A DNA stretch of 64,000 nt from Alphaproteobacteria bacterium (GTDB lineage: Bacteria > Pseudomonadota > Alphaproteobacteria > Rhodospirillales > Rhodospirillaceae). Positions 13,644 through 59,552 of this stretch are shown here, one piece after another. Positions within the stretch are counted from its first letter, which is position 1, and every line of letters starts with the position of its first letter. The stretch spans positions 1 to 64,000 of the forward strand of contig JAURPI010000005.1 of assembly GCA_030835385.1 (NCBI GenBank). The letters run 5' to 3'. A model generated the notes under the pieces. The model had not been told where the DNA came from, did no database searches, and saw only the letters and a list, made by a program, of their open reading frames with translations. Position numbers and translations under genes: made by a program.

Positions 13644-14060
13644 ATGGCTGACTCAAATTCGAAACGAAAGTCCTATACGGCGGACTTCATTAAATCAGAT
13701 ACCGACGAAGCGGTGTTTCTTGGCAATCCGCTGATGGACGACATGATGACGTCGATTATCGCTCTTGGGGCCGAGGTGTGGGCCAACCGTCGGCGCACCC
13801 GAATCATTGAATTGCTGATGGAAAAGGAAGGCGCGGTCACCCGTGAGATGATCGAGGCCTATGTGCCGACCGAGGACGAAGAGGCAGAAATGCGCGATGA
13901 GCGCGATGCTTTTATTCAATTGACCTACGGGCATATCGCGCGGACCGGCGAAGACCAAACCGCGCTCGATGGCAGTGCCAAAACAAACCCTGGCAAAGCC
14001 TCGGCCAACGAAACTGACGACGACATGACCGGCGATGCCGGTATGGGAATGGGAGGCTGA
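13644..14060 (+). CDS. Uncharacterised acidic protein upstream of Tat methyltransferase
   Basis: A 138 aa protein I do not recognise. The ATG at 13644 is preferred over the ORF-track start (13581) because AGGGAGGGC lies just upstream. The N-terminal two thirds are predicted helical (FLGNPLMDDMMTSIIALGAE, WANRRRTRIIELLMEKEG) and strongly charged; the last 40 residues are low-complexity and end in a Gly/Met-rich tail (DAGMGMGG). There is no signal peptide or membrane segment. It sits 2 bases before the Tat methyltransferase-like gene, so the two are probably co-translated. A partner or regulator role is inference only. Confidence 0.7.
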   Translation: MADSNSKRKSYTADFIKSDTDEAVFLGNPLMDDMMTSIIALGAEVWANRRRTRIIELLMEKEGAVTREMIEAYVPTEDEEAEMRDERDAFIQLTYGHIARTGEDQTALDGSAKTNPGKASANETDDDMTGDAGMGMGG

Positions 14061-14062
14061 CC

Positions 14063-15262
14063 ATGATGAACAGACGGACTCTATTTGGAGCCTCAGCGGC
14101 CACGGCTTCTTTTGTCGGCGCTTTGTTCGGCAGCAAGAAAGCCTCAACAGCGACAACGACCTCTTCCAAATTTTCATCTGCTGATGTGGAACCCCGTGGC
14201 TCTAAGGGCCGCCTCGAACGGCTGCCGCGCCAGCACCTAGAAGCGCAACATGATTTCATCACCGGATTTCGTGTGTTCGCCAATCGCGACATGACCAGCG
14301 CCGCGCGGCGACGCATTGCCAAGATTATGCGGGCCAAGGGCATCGACCCCACCAAGCGTCTCTCTTATAAAGAAGTGCTAGGTCATGTTGGTGGTGACCC
14401 ACTCGTGGCGGCAAGTGCGCGCATGTGGCTTAGCGCCCAGCAAATTAATTGGAAAACCCTGTACGACGAATTTCATGGCAATGCCAACGCGTATCTTGCC
14501 GAAATGGAAGCAACCGACAATGCAGGTCCGGGCACGTTAGAACTCAATCCGGATATGTATATTCCAGAATATTTAACCCATGAAATTCACATTCAACCCG
14601 GTGGCTACGTCGGGGATGAATTTGCTGGTCACATTTATCACTACGGCACCAATAACTTCTTTGAAGGCCGTAATGATCAAGACGAGTTGCATATCGGTCT
14701 TGCCACAGCCATGCCCGAGCCAGAGGACGGCAAGGTGGTACGGGTGCTTGATCAAGGGTGCAGCTGTGGCCAGTTGAGTGTGGCGCTCAAGGAACGATTC
14801 CCAGACGCCGAGGTGTGGGGCATCGATGTTGGTGGGCCAATGGTCCGCTATGCCCACATGCGGGCAGTCGACATTGGCATTGACGTGAACTTCGCACAGC
14901 GCCTGGCTGAGGACTCTAAGTTCCCAGACAACCATTTTGACATTGCCACCAACAACATCATGTTCCACGAGGTGACAACCGAAGCGGCGCATGAAATTCT
15001 CGCGGAGTCCTTCCGGGTGTTACGTCCGGGTGGGGTGTATTACCCAATCGATTTCTATACCGGGAATCCGGCACCGAAAGGTGTGTTTAGTACCTTCCGG
15101 CAATGGTGGGACAGCCGCTGGAATGGCGAGCCCTGGCGATTAGACTATGCCAAGTTCGATATGGCGGCGGCGATGCGCAAGGCTGGATTCATAGTCAATG
15201 AAAACGGTCCGCCGAGCCGACGCGGCGCAAGACGTAATATTTTAGGAACGAAACCGACCTAA
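14063..15262 (+). CDS. Methyltransferase-fold protein with twin-arginine signal
   Basis: A 399 aa protein beginning MMNRRTLFGASAATASF, a twin-arginine type N-terminus (RR followed by a mildly hydrophobic segment). It is followed by a conserved family segment PRGSKGRLERLPRQHLEA and, at about residue 225, a class I SAM-methyltransferase domain. The glycine loop is VLDQGCSCGQ, where paralogues at 56288 and 57415 have GCGIG or GCGLG; one loop Gly is Ser. The acidic residue after beta-2 is in VWGIDVGG and the post-II region is FRVLRPGGVYYPIDFY. SAM is not known in the periplasm, so export of an active methyltransferase would be odd. It may be a repurposed fold, or the signal may not be used. The substrate is unknown. 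Confidence 0.8.
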   Translation: MMNRRTLFGASAATASFVGALFGSKKASTATTTSSKFSSADVEPRGSKGRLERLPRQHLEAQHDFITGFRVFANRDMTSAARRRIAKIMRAKGIDPTKRLSYKEVLGHVGGDPLVAASARMWLSAQQINWKTLYDEFHGNANAYLAEMEATDNAGPGTLELNPDMYIPEYLTHEIHIQPGGYVGDEFAGHIYHYGTNNFFEGRNDQDELHIGLATAMPEPEDGKVVRVLDQGCSCGQLSVALKERFPDAEVWGIDVGGPMVRYAHMRAVDIGIDVNFAQRLAEDSKFPDNHFDIATNNIMFHEVTTEAAHEILAESFRVLRPGGVYYPIDFYTGNPAPKGVFSTFRQWWDSRWNGEPWRLDYAKFDMAAAMRKAGFIVNENGPPSRRGARRNILGTKPT

Positions 15263-15401: not shown

Positions 15402-16460
15402 ATGCCACTAAACAAGACATGGATATCTCTGCTCGTTGTCGGAGTGATTGGCGTCACGGCGATCTACCTGTGGCAAGATGATGCCGCCGCGCCGGCCAGT
15501 GCGGATATTCAAACCACTAAAGTCAGCCGGGAAACACTGACCCGGGAAGTGATCGCAACCGGAGTCATTCGACCGGTCGTTGGCGCTGAAATTAACGTCG
15601 GCTCGCGGGTATCAGGCATTGTTCAAAACCTACCGGTCAAGGTGGGGGATCGTGTAGAAGCCGGTGAGCTTCTCGCCCAATTAGATCCAACACCGTTTGA
15701 AGCCCTGGTTCAGCAAGCCACCGCAGATGTGGATTTATCCAAAGCGGAATTGGCGTTGGCCGAAAGTAATTTGGCCCGCAAACAGAATTTGGCAGCAGAG
15801 GGCTTCAGTCCGGAAGCGGATTTGCAGCAGGCTATTCGGGATATCAATGTGGCGCGGGCAAAACTGGCGCTCAACGACGCCAAGCTAAGATCCGCTGAGA
15901 TTGATTTAGGGTACACGCGCATCACCGCGCCGATCAAAGGTGTAATCGCCGATGTGACGACGCGGGAAGGGGAGACAGTTGCGGCCAGCTTCTCTGCGCC
16001 CAAGTTTGTATCGATCGTTGATCTTGATCGTCTTGAAGTTCAGGCCTTTGTTGATGAGACAGATATCGGTCGCGTGTTTGTCGGCCAGAATGCGCGTTTT
16101 GAAGTGGACACTTATTCGGATCGGGATTTCCAAGCCAAGGTAACGGCCATCAACCCTAAGGCGGAACTCCAGAACAGCGTGGTCAATTATATCGTCGTGC
16201 TCGACTTTGAAGGACAAGAGGGCAGCATCTTGCGTCCAGAAATGACAGCCCATGTGCGGCTACAGCTAGAGGAACGTAACAATGTTCTTACAGCTCCGCG
16301 CAGTGCCTTGCGCCGACAAAATGGGCGGCAAATGATTGTGGTTCAACGCGACGGAGATTGGACCACTCAGCCGGTCCGTATAGGATGGCGAACAGATCAA
16401 AAAGTTGAGATTGTAGATGGCGTGACGGAAGGCGATGTCATTCAACTTAATCCAAGTTAA
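15402..16460 (+). CDS. Periplasmic adaptor (MacA/HlyD family) of an ABC exporter
   Basis: Membrane-fusion protein linking an inner-membrane ABC transporter to the outer membrane. The 352 aa protein has one N-terminal membrane anchor (WISLLVVGVIGVTAIYLW), a lipoyl-type half-motif (VGSRVSGIVQNLPVKVGDRV), a predicted coiled-coil hairpin (about residues 100-170), the second lipoyl half (YTRITAPIKGVIADVTTREG), then beta-barrel and membrane-proximal domains. The context matches MacA: an ATPase and two FtsX-type permeases follow on the same strand with gaps of 27, -4 and 10 bases. The gene is 139 bases after the Tat methyltransferase-like gene. Confidence 0.9.
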   Translation: MPLNKTWISLLVVGVIGVTAIYLWQDDAAAPASADIQTTKVSRETLTREVIATGVIRPVVGAEINVGSRVSGIVQNLPVKVGDRVEAGELLAQLDPTPFEALVQQATADVDLSKAELALAESNLARKQNLAAEGFSPEADLQQAIRDINVARAKLALNDAKLRSAEIDLGYTRITAPIKGVIADVTTREGETVAASFSAPKFVSIVDLDRLEVQAFVDETDIGRVFVGQNARFEVDTYSDRDFQAKVTAINPKAELQNSVVNYIVVLDFEGQEGSILRPEMTAHVRLQLEERNNVLTAPRSALRRQNGRQMIVVQRDGDWTTQPVRIGWRTDQKVEIVDGVTEGDVIQLNPS

Positions 16461-16487
16461 TCGCCCTCGGGGGAAAAGGAGCGACCA

Positions 16488-17210
16488 GTGATTCAGTTAA
16501 AGGGGATTTGCAAATCCTATCCGCGGCCAGATGAAGGTCCGCTTGAAGTCTTGCGCAACATTGAGCTGAATATCTACGAAGGCGATTACATTGCCATTGT
16601 TGGTCCATCAGGCTCGGGCAAGTCAACATTGATGAATATTCTCGGGCTGCTCGATCATGCGGACAGTGGTGAGTATGTGATGGATGGTGAGAATGTCGCA
16701 GGTTTATCGCCTGCGAAACTCGCCAAGCTGCGGAACGAAAAAATCGGGTTTGTGTTTCAGCAATTTCATTTGCTGCCTCGGACGACCGCGATAGAAAACG
16801 TCGAAATTCCATTGATTTACTCCAACGCCGACAACCCGGAAGAGCGGGCCATAGAGGCTCTTAAGAATGTTGGGCTTGAGGAGCGTTTGAAGCATATGCC
16901 CGAAGAGCTTTCTGGTGGACAGCAGCAGAGAGTCGCCATTGCGCGGGCGTTGGTTACAGACCCGCAGCTGATCCTCGCTGATGAACCGACCGGGAATTTA
17001 GATAAGGCTTCGGGTGAAGGCCTGATGGATTTACTTCAAAATTTAAATGAGGACGGCCGGACCATCGTGGTGATTACCCATGATGAGAATCTGGCCAAGC
17101 GGGCGAAACGGACGGTGCGTATCGATGATGGCCGTCTCAGTGAATTGCGTGATGTTACCCCGGACTCAAGTGGGAGTTCTGGCGAAACCCAAATGGGAGA
17201 TGTGGCATGA
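16488..17210 (+). CDS. ABC transporter ATP-binding subunit (MacB/LolD type)
   Basis: ATPase of 240 aa with Walker [10 protein letters not shown]-loop [10 protein letters not shown], signature LSGGQQQR, Walker [13 protein letters not shown] and the H-loop His in VVITHDE. The sequence [14 protein letters not shown] is characteristic of the MacB/LolD/FtsE group. It is a stand-alone ATPase, not fused to the permease as in E. coli MacB. The start is GTG at 16488 with AAAAGGA upstream. The stop overlaps the next gene by 4 bases (ATGA). Confidence 0.93.
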
Positions 17211-18418
17211 ACACGAAACTTCTATTCGCAGGTAGCGCGCGCATGATGATGCGCTACAAAATGCGGACTTTCTTTATGGCAATTGGTATTGTGGTTGGCG
17301 TGACCGCGCTGGTCTTTATGCGGGCCATGGGTGTTGGCGCCGAGCAGGCGATGATGGATACGGTCAACAAAACCTTCTCTACGGCAACGATCAACTTGGT
17401 TGCTGGTGGTGGGCATATGGGGCCGCGGGCTGGCGGGCCGGTGACTTCGCTTAGAGTTGCTGACTTTGATGCCATCGAGAATCAAATTGATGGCGTTGTT
17501 ATAACTGGTGCGATGCAGTGGCTCCCTAGTGAGGATATTCGTTATCAAGGCAATACACGACAAATGAGTATCTACGGATATACGGATCAAACCGAAGCTG
17601 TTTGGCTCCGCGGTGTTGAATATGGTGAGTACTTCACGTCCGAAGATATTGAGTCTGCATCGCGTGTTGCGGTAATCGGACAACGGGCCGCAGAAGCGTT
17701 GTTTGGAGATGAAGACCCTATCGGCAAGCAGATCCAAGCAGGCTCTGTGCCACTTCGAATTAAAGGTGTGCTCGAGTTGCAGGGGATTGATACCCACGGC
17801 GCCGATAAGGATGACGAAATTCATGTGCCCGTGACAACGTTGATGCGTCGTCTGATGAATGTGGACCACGTGTTCGCAGGTCGAGTAATTATTGATGACC
17901 CCGACAACGTGGAAAATGTTGGAGAAGAAATCAAATTACTCATGCGGGAGCGGCATTCTCTAAATGAAGGAGAACCTGACGACGTTGTTGTGATTACGCC
18001 GAATCTTGTTCAGGACATTGTGAGCAACGCGAACCGGGTACTCGGACGGTACCTTCCAGCCGCCGCAGGTGTGGCGTTGTTAGTGGCTGCGATTGTCATT
18101 GCAAACATCATGCTGATTGCGGTGAAGGAGCGGGTACCGGAAATTGGTATTCGCAAAGCGGTTGGCGCTGAAAGCGGTCAGATTAACTTTCAGTTCCTGA
18201 CTGAAACCGTGGTGATTGCGTTGACCTCTGGCTTGTTCGGTATCGGCATCGGGATGATCGCGGCTGTCGCATTTGGAAATTTGAGTGATGTGCCGATGAT
18301 TGTGACGCCAGGGTCCTTGGCTCTTGGACTCGGCGCTGCCGTGTTGGTCGGCATCTTTGCGGGTGTTATGCCAGCACGCCAAGCCTCGGCAATGGATCCA
18401 GTAAACGCATTGCGGTAG
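17207..18418 (+). CDS. ABC transporter permease (FtsX/MacB type), first copy
   Basis: A 403 aa permease with the FtsX/MacB layout: one N-terminal membrane helix (MRTFFMAIGIVVGVTALVFM), a large periplasmic MacB-like core domain (about residues 45-265), and three C-terminal helices containing VKERVPEIGIRKAVGAESGQ, the usual cytoplasmic loop that contacts the ATPase. It is translationally coupled to the ATPase gene and followed by a second, divergent permease, so the transporter is probably a heterodimer. By family it is likely to act in mechanotransmission or export of an amphiphilic compound or peptide rather than import. Confidence 0.9.
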   Translation: MNTKLLFAGSARMMMRYKMRTFFMAIGIVVGVTALVFMRAMGVGAEQAMMDTVNKTFSTATINLVAGGGHMGPRAGGPVTSLRVADFDAIENQIDGVVITGAMQWLPSEDIRYQGNTRQMSIYGYTDQTEAVWLRGVEYGEYFTSEDIESASRVAVIGQRAAEALFGDEDPIGKQIQAGSVPLRIKGVLELQGIDTHGADKDDEIHVPVTTLMRRLMNVDHVFAGRVIIDDPDNVENVGEEIKLLMRERHSLNEGEPDDVVVITPNLVQDIVSNANRVLGRYLPAAAGVALLVAAIVIANIMLIAVKERVPEIGIRKAVGAESGQINFQFLTETVVIALTSGLFGIGIGMIAAVAFGNLSDVPMIVTPGSLALGLGAAVLVGIFAGVMPARQASAMDPVNALR

Positions 18419-18428
18419 ATCTCCATAA

Positions 18429-19646
18429 ATGAAGTGGCAGAAAAACCTCCGCTTCTCCTTTAGAGCGATCAACCGGTCCCGAGGGCGGGCACTACTGTCT
18501 ATCAGTGGTGTCGCGATCGGTATTACGGCTGTGGCAATTCTCATCGGCGCCGGGGCAGGGGCCGAGCGGGCGTTTCAGAAATCTCTGGAGCAACTCGGTG
18601 AGAATCTTATGGCCGTCAACGCGGCTCGCACAGAGACGGATGCACTGCGCGGCGCGAGCCAGCTCTACCGCACCCTCAAGCTCAATGATTGGGAAGCGAT
18701 TAAGTTTCTTGAAAGCGTTAAGCGTGCAGCTCCCGTTGCCGATGGCGGTCGTACGCTAAAAGTCGGGCGCATTGCGCAGGCCTTTACAGTGCTCGGCACG
18801 ACACCAGAGTTTCAAGAGGCGAAGAAATTTAATCTCGTTGCAGGACGATTCATAGACCAGGACGACATTGATAATAGACATCGTGTTGCCGTCGTCGGCG
18901 CGGACGTGGTGAGCGATTTGTACTTTGGAGAATGGCCGTTAGGAGAGCGGGTGTCCGTTGGTGGCGTGCCGTTCACCATTATCGGTATTCTTAAACGGAA
19001 AGGATTGAACCCGGATGGGACAAGCGATGATGGACAAATCATCGTTCCCGTGACAACTGCGCAACGTCGTGTGTTCAATATTGACTACTTGTCGCGAATC
19101 TTTGTGCAAGCTGTGTCTCAGCCTGCAATTGATGAAGCGAACAAAGATATTACGGCCCTTCTTCGAGATGAGCATGGTTACGGCCAGCCTAACTATACCG
19201 ATGATTTTGAAATCCAAGATCAAGACTCATTGCTGGCTACTCAAGAGCAAATGAAAGGTTCTTTCAGTGAACTGACAGTGGGGCTTGCTGCTTTGACATT
19301 GGGGCTAGGTGGGGTCGGATTGCTTGCCGTGTCATTGTTATCTGTAAGAGAGCGGTATGGCGAAATTGGATTGCGCATCGCCGTTGGGGCCAGGCCACGC
19401 GACATACTGACTCAGTTTCTGACAGAGTCCGTATTGCTGGCTGTGATGGGTGGAATTACGGGTATTCTTGTCGGCGGCGCGTGTATTCTCATTGGCAGCC
19501 AGCTTACCGGATGGAGCATGATTCTAACTTGGGAATCCGCGGCCTATCCGTTCTTAATTTCGCTCGCTATCGCAGTAGTTTTTGGTGCATTTCCTGCGCT
19601 TCGGGCGGCGCGGCTTGATCCAATCGTGGCGTTACGAAGTAAGTAA
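18429..19646 (+). CDS. ABC transporter permease (FtsX/MacB type), second copy
   Basis: Second FtsX-type permease (405 aa), 10 bases after the first. It starts KWQKNLRFSFRAINRSRGRA, has an N-terminal membrane helix (LSISGVAIGITAVAILIGAG), a periplasmic core domain, and three C-terminal helices with VRERYGEIGLRIAVGARPRD as the ATPase-contact loop. It pairs with the 17207 product. The whole set (adaptor, ATPase, two permeases) resembles a split MacAB efflux system. About 110 bases separate it from the secreted nitrilase-like gene, so that gene may have its own promoter. Confidence 0.9.
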   Translation: MKWQKNLRFSFRAINRSRGRALLSISGVAIGITAVAILIGAGAGAERAFQKSLEQLGENLMAVNAARTETDALRGASQLYRTLKLNDWEAIKFLESVKRAAPVADGGRTLKVGRIAQAFTVLGTTPEFQEAKKFNLVAGRFIDQDDIDNRHRVAVVGADVVSDLYFGEWPLGERVSVGGVPFTIIGILKRKGLNPDGTSDDGQIIVPVTTAQRRVFNIDYLSRIFVQAVSQPAIDEANKDITALLRDEHGYGQPNYTDDFEIQDQDSLLATQEQMKGSFSELTVGLAALTLGLGGVGLLAVSLLSVRERYGEIGLRIAVGARPRDILTQFLTESVLLAVMGGITGILVGGACILIGSQLTGWSMILTWESAAYPFLISLAIAVVFGAFPALRAARLDPIVALRSK

Positions 19647-56287: not shown

Positions 56288-57400
56288 TTAAGCCTTCTTA
56301 GTACCTAATAAGTTATAGCGGCTACGCCACGCCGGTGGCCCCTCTCGCGTGACCTCAAATCCCGCATCAGCCATCGCTTTGGGAAAATCAAAGCGCGCAT
56401 ACTCCTGGCGCCAGACTTCTTCATTCCAACGATGATCTTTCCACTGGCTATACTTGGCATAGGCCGAACGCGCACCCGGTGACGAACCGGTCTGAAAATC
56501 GATCGGGAAAAACACACCGCCCGGACGCAGGATGCGGTGGACCTCTTTGGTGATCTCTTTAGAGATCTCTTCCGGCACTTCGTGATGGAGAATATAAGAA
56601 GCCACGACATCAAAGTGGTTGTCTGGGAACTTGGTATCTTCCGCCATGCGCTGGGCGAAATTAACGGCCACATCAAGTTCAACCGCTCGCATATGCCCAT
56701 AGCGAATCATTGGCCCACCGGCATCAATGCCCCATACCTCGGCATCGGCAAACCGCTCTTTCAGAGCAACGGCTAATTGCCCAATGCCACATCCGATGTC
56801 GAGAACTCGTGTAACTTTGCGATCTTCAGGTTCAGGTACCTGATTCCCAAGTCGGGTGTGCAGCTCATCCTGGTAGTTGAAAAGCTTACCGGCGTTATAA
56901 AAATTGTTTGTGCTGTAGTGGTAGATGTGTCCGGCAAAAGCATTGCCAACATAGCCACCCGGCTGCGTATGGATCTCATAGCGGGCGTAATCGGGAATAT
57001 CTAAATCAGGGTCTAACTCGAGACTTCCCGGCCCTCTATTGTCAAATTCTTCCATTTCCGCCAGGTAGTAGTCCGCATTCGACTTAAACTCTTCGTCAAA
57101 GTTTCGGTGCATGACGTCATGAACGCCCGTTCGATAACGAGCAGCCACGCCAATGATCGGATCACCGTCAATTGCGGCAAATATCTCTTCCATCGGTGTA
57201 TCTGTTGACTTCGGGTCGATCCCTGCTTGCTCAAGAAGCTGATCGAACCGCTTGACGGCGGCGGGAATTGCGCGATCGGATCCCCAAGTGCGATAGCCGG
57301 TGAGAAAATCATCTCGGCTTTCCACGTCAAGGGTCGCGAGGCGTTCTAAGCGCCCTTTCGAGCCGCGAGGCTCTTGGTCAAACTTTAGTTTGGACGCCAT
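56288..57400 (-). CDS. Class I SAM-methyltransferase-fold protein, cytoplasmic paralogue of the Tat forms
   Basis: ATG 57400 (with GGAGAG just upstream) gives 370 aa; the ORF-track TTG at 57412 is part of that Shine-Dalgarno. The protein starts MASKLKFDQEPRGSKGRLER, so it has the family's conserved segment but no Tat signal. The SAM loop is VLDIGCGIGQLAVALKERF, then VWGIDAGGPMIRYGHMRA, YILHHEVPEEIS and HRILRPGGVFFPIDF. It closely resembles 14063 and 57415. It lies 14 bases after the 57415 gene, probably in one operon. Confidence 0.87.
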   Translation of the reverse strand: MASKLKFDQEPRGSKGRLERLATLDVESRDDFLTGYRTWGSDRAIPAAVKRFDQLLEQAGIDPKSTDTPMEEIFAAIDGDPIIGVAARYRTGVHDVMHRNFDEEFKSNADYYLAEMEEFDNRGPGSLELDPDLDIPDYARYEIHTQPGGYVGNAFAGHIYHYSTNNFYNAGKLFNYQDELHTRLGNQVPEPEDRKVTRVLDIGCGIGQLAVALKERFADAEVWGIDAGGPMIRYGHMRAVELDVAVNFAQRMAEDTKFPDNHFDVVASYILHHEVPEEISKEITKEVHRILRPGGVFFPIDFQTGSSPGARSAYAKYSQWKDHRWNEEVWRQEYARFDFPKAMADAGFEVTREGPPAWRSRYNLLGTKKA

Positions 57401-58751: not shown

Positions 58752-59552
58752 TTGACCCTACTCCCCACGCCAAAAGCTATTGATCCAAACGACCCTGATC
58801 ATTTGGACTTTCTTCATAGCAAACTCCTGTATGCGTTAGATGATAGGCCCATCTTTTGGTGGAAGCGCGGCACCAAATACGGAGTCATAGAGGGAGAAGC
58901 AAAGCCCATGTGGAATATGTGGGTGTTTTTCGTGCAACGGGTAACAGCTCATCGTGCCGAGAGCTTTGACGTTGCCTCTTTGGAAGCGATCTATCTTACA
59001 GACTTAGAAACGGGCGAGTTGCTTGAGACTTGGCACAACTTTTATACCGGAGAAACTCTTCCGGTCCCGGGCCGGTTAATGTGACCTGAAATACAAACCT
59101 TCACCAAAGACGGCAGCAGTATGGCAGCACCCCCCCCTGCCTGGGATAGAGATCAAGCGTAAACACACCCTCGGGTCAGCAACGATCGTCGGCAATGAAG
59201 CTTGGTTGTCTTTTGATTCGTTGGCCATTGTGACGCGTAAAAATGTCGACGGTAGGTCTCAGTTTCGGATCAATGACCTTGAGACTTTCAATGCAAAGTT
59301 AAACGACATACTCGACCCAGCCCAACTCAGCGCACCGGCGAGCGCTACACTACATCTCATTTCGAGTTGGCAAGGCTGGCTTAATATGGGTGACCGACCT
59401 GGAAGTCAGGTCACGCGTCTGGTGGCCAAGAAAGTGTTTCAATTTGAGGATATCGCGCCGCCCTGCAGCATTTCATACAACAAACCTATCCAGAAATTGC
59501 ATCAAATCCTGTGGCTGCTCTAAATCGAGCGCCCGAAAGTTTCGAAGACTAG
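58752..59552 (+). pseudogene. DUF1838-family gene with three inactivating lesions
   Basis: The 5' part reads DPNDPDHLDFLHSKLLYALD, then WWKRGTKYG and LTDLETGELLETWHNFYTGE, all DUF1838 hallmarks. The frame meets TGA at 59082-59084 and continues in the same frame as EIQTFTKDGSSMAAPPP. An 8-C run at 59130-59137 has one C too many; removing it gives PPLPGIEIKRKHTLGSATIV. Near 59457-59460 one base is missing; restoring it gives ALQHFIQQTYPEIASNPVAA to the stop TAG at 59550-59552. This is a decayed paralogue of the 44673 gene. The ORF track's two pieces (58752-59084 and 59206-59523) are fragments of it. Confidence 0.8.

Follow-up and report, generated by a model that had tools for sequence, protein, structure and literature searches.

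The window, a 64,000-nucleotide stretch of a Rhodospirillaceae genome, encodes a methyltransferase-fold protein, P0001, whose clade is very probably exported from the cytoplasm, judging by a conserved twin-arginine (Tat) signal. The exported proteins look catalytic and SAM-binding, which makes their compartment puzzling: we know of no supply of SAM outside the cytoplasm, neither a periplasmic pool nor an exporter. If both the export and the intact active site hold, the enzymes must either leave SAM unconsumed or be supplied with it, which refines the earlier note's option that the proteins leave with bound SAM. The favoured explanation, to which we give a probability of roughly 0.4, is that P0001 would leave the cytoplasm folded and loaded with cofactor, that a small partner protein would ride along, and that the chemistry outside would not consume SAM.

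P0001 is encoded at 14063-15262 on the forward strand and is 399 amino acids long, with the N-terminus MMNRRTLFGASAATASFVGALFGSKKASTA. An N-terminal helical region (about residues 57-215) precedes a Rossmann-type domain (about 225-399). Residues 228-324 match Pfam Methyltransf_25 (PF13649; E 3.4e-19, 69.8 bits against a cut-off of 27), which makes the C-terminal half a methyltransferase domain of class I, and Foldseek gave the methyltransferase fold a probability of 1.00. The AF2 model has a mean pLDDT of 91, and its disorder is limited to the first 35 or so residues: residues 1-34 are mostly below 50, as fits a cleavable signal. The earlier note had read a methyltransferase fold with a twin-arginine signal in this gene, and the translation, Pfam and AF2 bear that out. 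The best NCBIfam match, the corrinoid-associated methyltransferase CpaM, was dropped at 45.9 bits of a 180-bit cut-off.

Three relatives lie on the reverse strand of the window. P0002 (57415-58617) is a Tat-type paralogue by sequence and Pfam, with the signal MLDRRTLFGAAAGIGTAAASLLTGRKATA. P0003 (56288-57412), directly after P0002, belongs to the Tat clade by sequence and tree and has lost its signal; its frame opens just about 12 codons upstream, too little room for a signal, and its start is likely the ATG at 57400, behind GGAGAG. The signal on the first of these paralogues and its absence from the second had both been pointed out from the sequence, correctly. The P0003 orthologue in locus L121 is also without a signal, while the nearest relative (L107, 4001-5200) retains it. 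P0004 (55063-56262) falls in the signal-less, presumed cytoplasmic clade by Pfam and tree. Other genes of this part of the window were noted in passing. Adjoining P0004, 54221-55057 encodes two DUF1330 domains after a likely signal peptide, an arrangement kept in L121 (6326-7036). Beside P0002, the frame at 58752-59084 resembles the start of the L121 DUF1838 protein (1781-2581, 266 aa) and is only 110 aa long, possibly from a frameshift or truncation. By eye, the signal-bearing protein at 60837-59563 (reverse strand) is of the formylglycine-generating-enzyme type, and such proteins also occur near other family members, for example at L036:10003-10998.

The family is far larger than the second locus from which repetition had been recognized: the window's genome (3.28 Mb, 47 contigs) has 49 matches, or about 48 paralogues. 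They comprise 13 full-length P0001-clade genes, 11 of them with RR, 33 signal-less-clade genes and two contig-end fragments. Alignment and tree separate the two clades, P0001-like members being at least 46% identical to P0001 over the body and signal-less members at most 36%; most of the latter start near an H-D-E-x-x-R-Q motif. Within the window's GTDB family, the methyltransferases occur in 19 of 73 genomes and 6 of 23 genera, and class-wide 25 of 385 sampled genomes match at 1e-45. By name, the bearers are Rhodospirillaceae-like marine and freshwater MAGs, the related ones with many further copies, and MAGs under a Gammaproteobacteria label that, judging from their isolate names, may be associated with sponges. 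Three loci from other families were examined, of which L131 and L132 are signal-less and L130 has an RR signal. Sphingomonad plasmids carry signal-less relatives. A search of open-licence papers found no literature on this paralogue family or on the plasmid pJE1.

The predicted Tat signal of P0001 covers residues 1-30 (14063-14152, forward strand), as indicated by sequence, clade conservation and low pLDDT. Its RR is at residues 4-5, and KK precedes the likely S-T-A cleavage site. Signals of the clade have the RR, hydrophobic residues after it, an apolar h-region and an A-x-A site. The earlier note would have given up its reading had RR varied among orthologues; RR is retained in about 88 of 92 non-redundant clade members, a count that takes in L104 and L018, where RR is present and the upstream frames are long. 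For the two arginines, 5 and 6 different codons occur, combined into 23 pairs, so it is the residues that are conserved and not merely the DNA. All 86 signals examined have an A-x-A-like site after RR, and in 75 of them this site comes directly behind a basic c-region. Such a basic c-region residue is described as a Sec-avoidance feature in PMC6708511, which likewise gives the Tat consensus. Three of the four RR exceptions have lost the entire N-terminal extension (P0003, its L121 orthologue, and L059 1452-2570). The fourth, L015 in the window's genome, has GR, which is read as a recent change or assembly error because its relative L095 has RR. On the tree, strict rules give seven Tat-label changes, and these rules miscounted five RR members for an acidic residue or a weak h-region; the simplest reading of the signal's history is one gain and a few losses. 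No member of the cytoplasmic clade carries such a signal.

Further observations bear on export. Cysteines in the mature part stand at 1.51 in the P0001 clade against 3.67 in the signal-less clade, and at 0.68 against 3.0 with column 233 left out (Mann-Whitney 5e-13 and 2e-15, p-values that ignore shared ancestry). This scarcity is in the direction expected for proteins outside the cytoplasm; the difference is confounded with clade ancestry, and the signal-less P0003 and its L121 orthologue are also cysteine-poor. The window's genome encodes TatC (242.8 bits), and Tat-signal enzymes adjoin a family gene in some relatives, namely alpha/beta hydrolases (L052, L101) and an NAD(P)-binding protein (L109). 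Together with the conserved, synonymously varied RR, the A-x-A sites and the basic c-regions, these lines support the Tat export of a methyltransferase fold, which the earlier note had taken as its premise while missing the partner protein, the family's size and the signal-less clade. Rossmann proteins that bind NAD(P) and carry Sec or Tat signals were also seen adjoining family members (L024:3967-4731, L020:4228-4989, L109:1339-2121), so these clusters may export further cofactor-dependent enzymes. The open-licence literature searched yielded no description of a Tat-exported SAM methyltransferase.

The SAM site is preserved in the exported proteins. Motif I of P0001, D230-Q-G-C-S-C-G236 (14750-14770, forward strand), was assigned from column conservation in both clades, and the motif II acidic residue is D255. 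Across the Tat clade G232 is found in 92 of 92 members, G236 in 91 of 92, and D255 as 90 Asp and 2 Glu. A second conserved site is the H302-E303 pair (14966-14971, forward strand), invariant in 135 sequences, which with H176 and E356 forms a putative catalytic or metal site. P168, H176, D293, H302, E303, G323, G324 and E356 show virtually no variation in the Tat clade and almost as little in the signal-less one, and G232, D255, D293, H176, H302, E303 and E356 are equally conserved in both.

Known class I small-molecule SAM methyltransferases (PF13649/PF08241; fold matches Rv2258c, DsyB, CysG and MfnG) share with this family the Rossmann-type domain, motif I, the motif II acidic residue and an FD motif. 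Unlike them, the family has a helical N-terminal region of about 200 residues without a Pfam match, a Tat signal in one clade, and its own partner protein. Two-domain fold matches to P0001 reach a TM of only about 0.4 with rmsd above 16. The best-matching solved single-domain structures are the carboxyl O-methyltransferases CysG and BelI, whose metal-binding motif is HHD (PMC11408123). H302-E303 aligns with both His of that motif: H302 takes the place of the first His, the glutamate E303 replaces the second, and the third ligand is not alignable. CysG and BelI are cytoplasmic and have no signal, unlike the P0001 clade.

According to the favoured explanation, P0001 would fold in the cytoplasm and bind SAM or SAH there, probably together with the small helical partner. 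Tat would then export it, with the signal-less partner as a hitchhiker. Outside, P0001 would use the active site that it has in common with the cytoplasmic paralogues (H176, H302-E303, E356, possibly with a metal). The chemistry would keep SAM or SAH, or a metal, as a bound cofactor and would not be a stoichiometric methyl transfer; candidate reactions are the isomerisation, elimination, hydration or decarboxylation of a small acid. We infer the bound SAM or SAH. Some SAM-binding proteins with this fold, for example LepI and RdmB, are known to catalyse reactions other than methyl transfer. A reaction that spares SAM is favoured, though unproven, because SAM is not known to be regenerated outside and because the cytoplasmic paralogues lie among catabolic-type genes. 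There is a working precedent for the loading step in the Zymomonas glucose-fructose oxidoreductase, which, as cited in PMC6708511, is exported by Tat with bound NADP, a cytoplasmic nucleotide cofactor loaded before export and not exchanged. That enzyme has an unrelated fold, and its catalytic cycle itself restores the NADP; a methyl transfer, by contrast, would use up the SAM. Signal-less subunits exported as hitchhikers also have a precedent (PMC4273604).

A somewhat unlikely alternative is that the exported proteins are true periplasmic methyltransferases, with SAM arriving through an exporter or by leakage and small acids or phenols being methylated there. A true methyltransferase would be expected to have just such an intact SAM site, and the invariant HE pair aligns with the CysG/BelI carboxyl methyltransferase metal site. 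Against this stand the lack of any known periplasmic pool or exporter of SAM and the gene neighbourhoods, where, across the loci examined, no transporter accompanies the family consistently. MacAB-like efflux genes (an adaptor, an ATPase and two permeases) lie downstream of P0001 at 15402-19646, and in L052 a Tat-signal hydrolase sits between such genes. MacAB-like efflux was rejected as a constant partner of P0001: it is present in the window and L052, but L051 and L054 lack it and L053 has a remnant at best. Near L013/L066, an EamA-like transporter was considered as a SAM carrier and set aside, as its position next to DUF1244 and pyruvate kinase appears to reflect a gene order of a general kind. 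The cytoplasmic clade has FAD oxidase, PhyH, MmgE/PrpD, cupin and solute-binding proteins among its neighbours, and the pair WP_087573421.1 and WP_087573420.1, made up of a methyltransferase and its partner on the Sphingomonas plasmid pJE1, sits in a cluster of oxidoreductases, MmgE/PrpD, a hydrolase, transporters and a TonB-dependent receptor. These surroundings of catabolic-type enzymes and transporters, among which methylation is hard to explain, are no more than suggestive. Near Tat-type methyltransferases, VanA-type Rieske oxygenases (PF00355 with PF19112), often in several copies, were seen in L055, L056, L057, L012 and L070.

The partner gene (13644-14060, forward strand) ends 2 bases before the P0001 start and encodes a signal-less helical protein of 138 aa, as characterized by an alignment of 24 homologues, AF2 and co-occurrence. 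Proteins of this kind, about 115 aa long, are the commonest neighbours of the family genes. AF2 predicts a helical hairpin with a core pLDDT near 90. Two members had no match in Pfam; in NCBIfam two had none and a third had only sub-cut-off matches; and a fold search against solved structures returned matches only at E above 5. In the 24-homologue alignment no signal peptide was seen and there is almost no cysteine. Of the 73 genomes, the 19 with the methyltransferase family all have the partner, and the other 54 all lack it. Two partner genes of one MAG are 91% identical in DNA across just the gene's 352 bases, with dissimilar flanks (L067:3619-3970, L076:3620-3971). Several contigs of the window's genome end inside partner copies (C1, C2, C7, C22, C28, C41), and the ends of C22 and C28 are identical over 141 bases. 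These near-identical copies are likely to have come from gene conversion or from duplication limited to the gene, and a near-constant partner beside divergent methyltransferases suggests that one partner serves many. A fusion of the two was sought as proof of contact, and no frame holds both; we infer their physical partnership. Trm112-type activators offer a functional analogy, as a small protein paired with several methyltransferases, and a Trm112 complex (6f5z) is among the fold matches, but the partner here is a helical hairpin with no solved-structure match.

A rather improbable alternative for the partner, compatible with the favoured view of the enzyme, is that it is a Tat proofreading chaperone with a TorD-like role, which would stay in the cytoplasm and not travel. 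It is helical and signal-less, and it usually lies directly upstream of Tat-type genes. However, TorD-type chaperones are tied to Tat substrates, and this partner also accompanies the signal-less clade, including on pJE1, so its role cannot be Tat-specific. Beside signal-less genes it more often lies downstream.

It is quite improbable that the exported proteins are not enzymes and keep the fold solely to bind a ligand, SAM or SAH, an option the earlier note had raised. Export away from the SAM-making compartment and the variable middle position of motif I (G, S, T or A) would suit such a role, but a pure binder should lose H176, H302, E303 and E356, which are 100% conserved in the exported clade, and the SAM-site and putative catalytic residues are as invariant there as in cytoplasmic members. 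Very doubtful too is that the N-terminus is no working Tat signal or a mere tether on ordinary cytoplasmic methyltransferases, for although D or N often precedes RR, the h-region is short and P0003 works without any signal, the cross-genus RR with its varied codons, the A-x-A sites, the Sec-avoidance residues, the cysteine depletion and the unsignalled cytoplasmic clade all oppose it, and anchoring, the weakest of the three options first proposed, would also place the domain outside.

Returning to cofactor-loaded export, what the family means can be put more broadly. There is about an even chance that these genes form a two-protein system of enzyme and helical partner, at some 50 copies per genome, with one branch working outside the cytoplasm on pre-loaded, unconsumed SAM or SAH or on a periplasmic SAM pool. 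It is generally assumed that SAM-dependent enzymes work only in compartments where SAM is present, and either of these, if true, would be new biology for SAM. The analysis also brings to light an unannotated partner protein beside a methyltransferase-fold family, and shows that the paralogues have multiplied to an unusual extent in marine, freshwater and sponge-associated bacteria that have been little studied. With its SAM site intact and a cytoplasmic sister clade that shares its active site, the large exported clade amounts to a natural experiment: it would point either to an entire enzyme family that can retain SAM as a cofactor or to bacteria that have SAM outside the cytoplasm.
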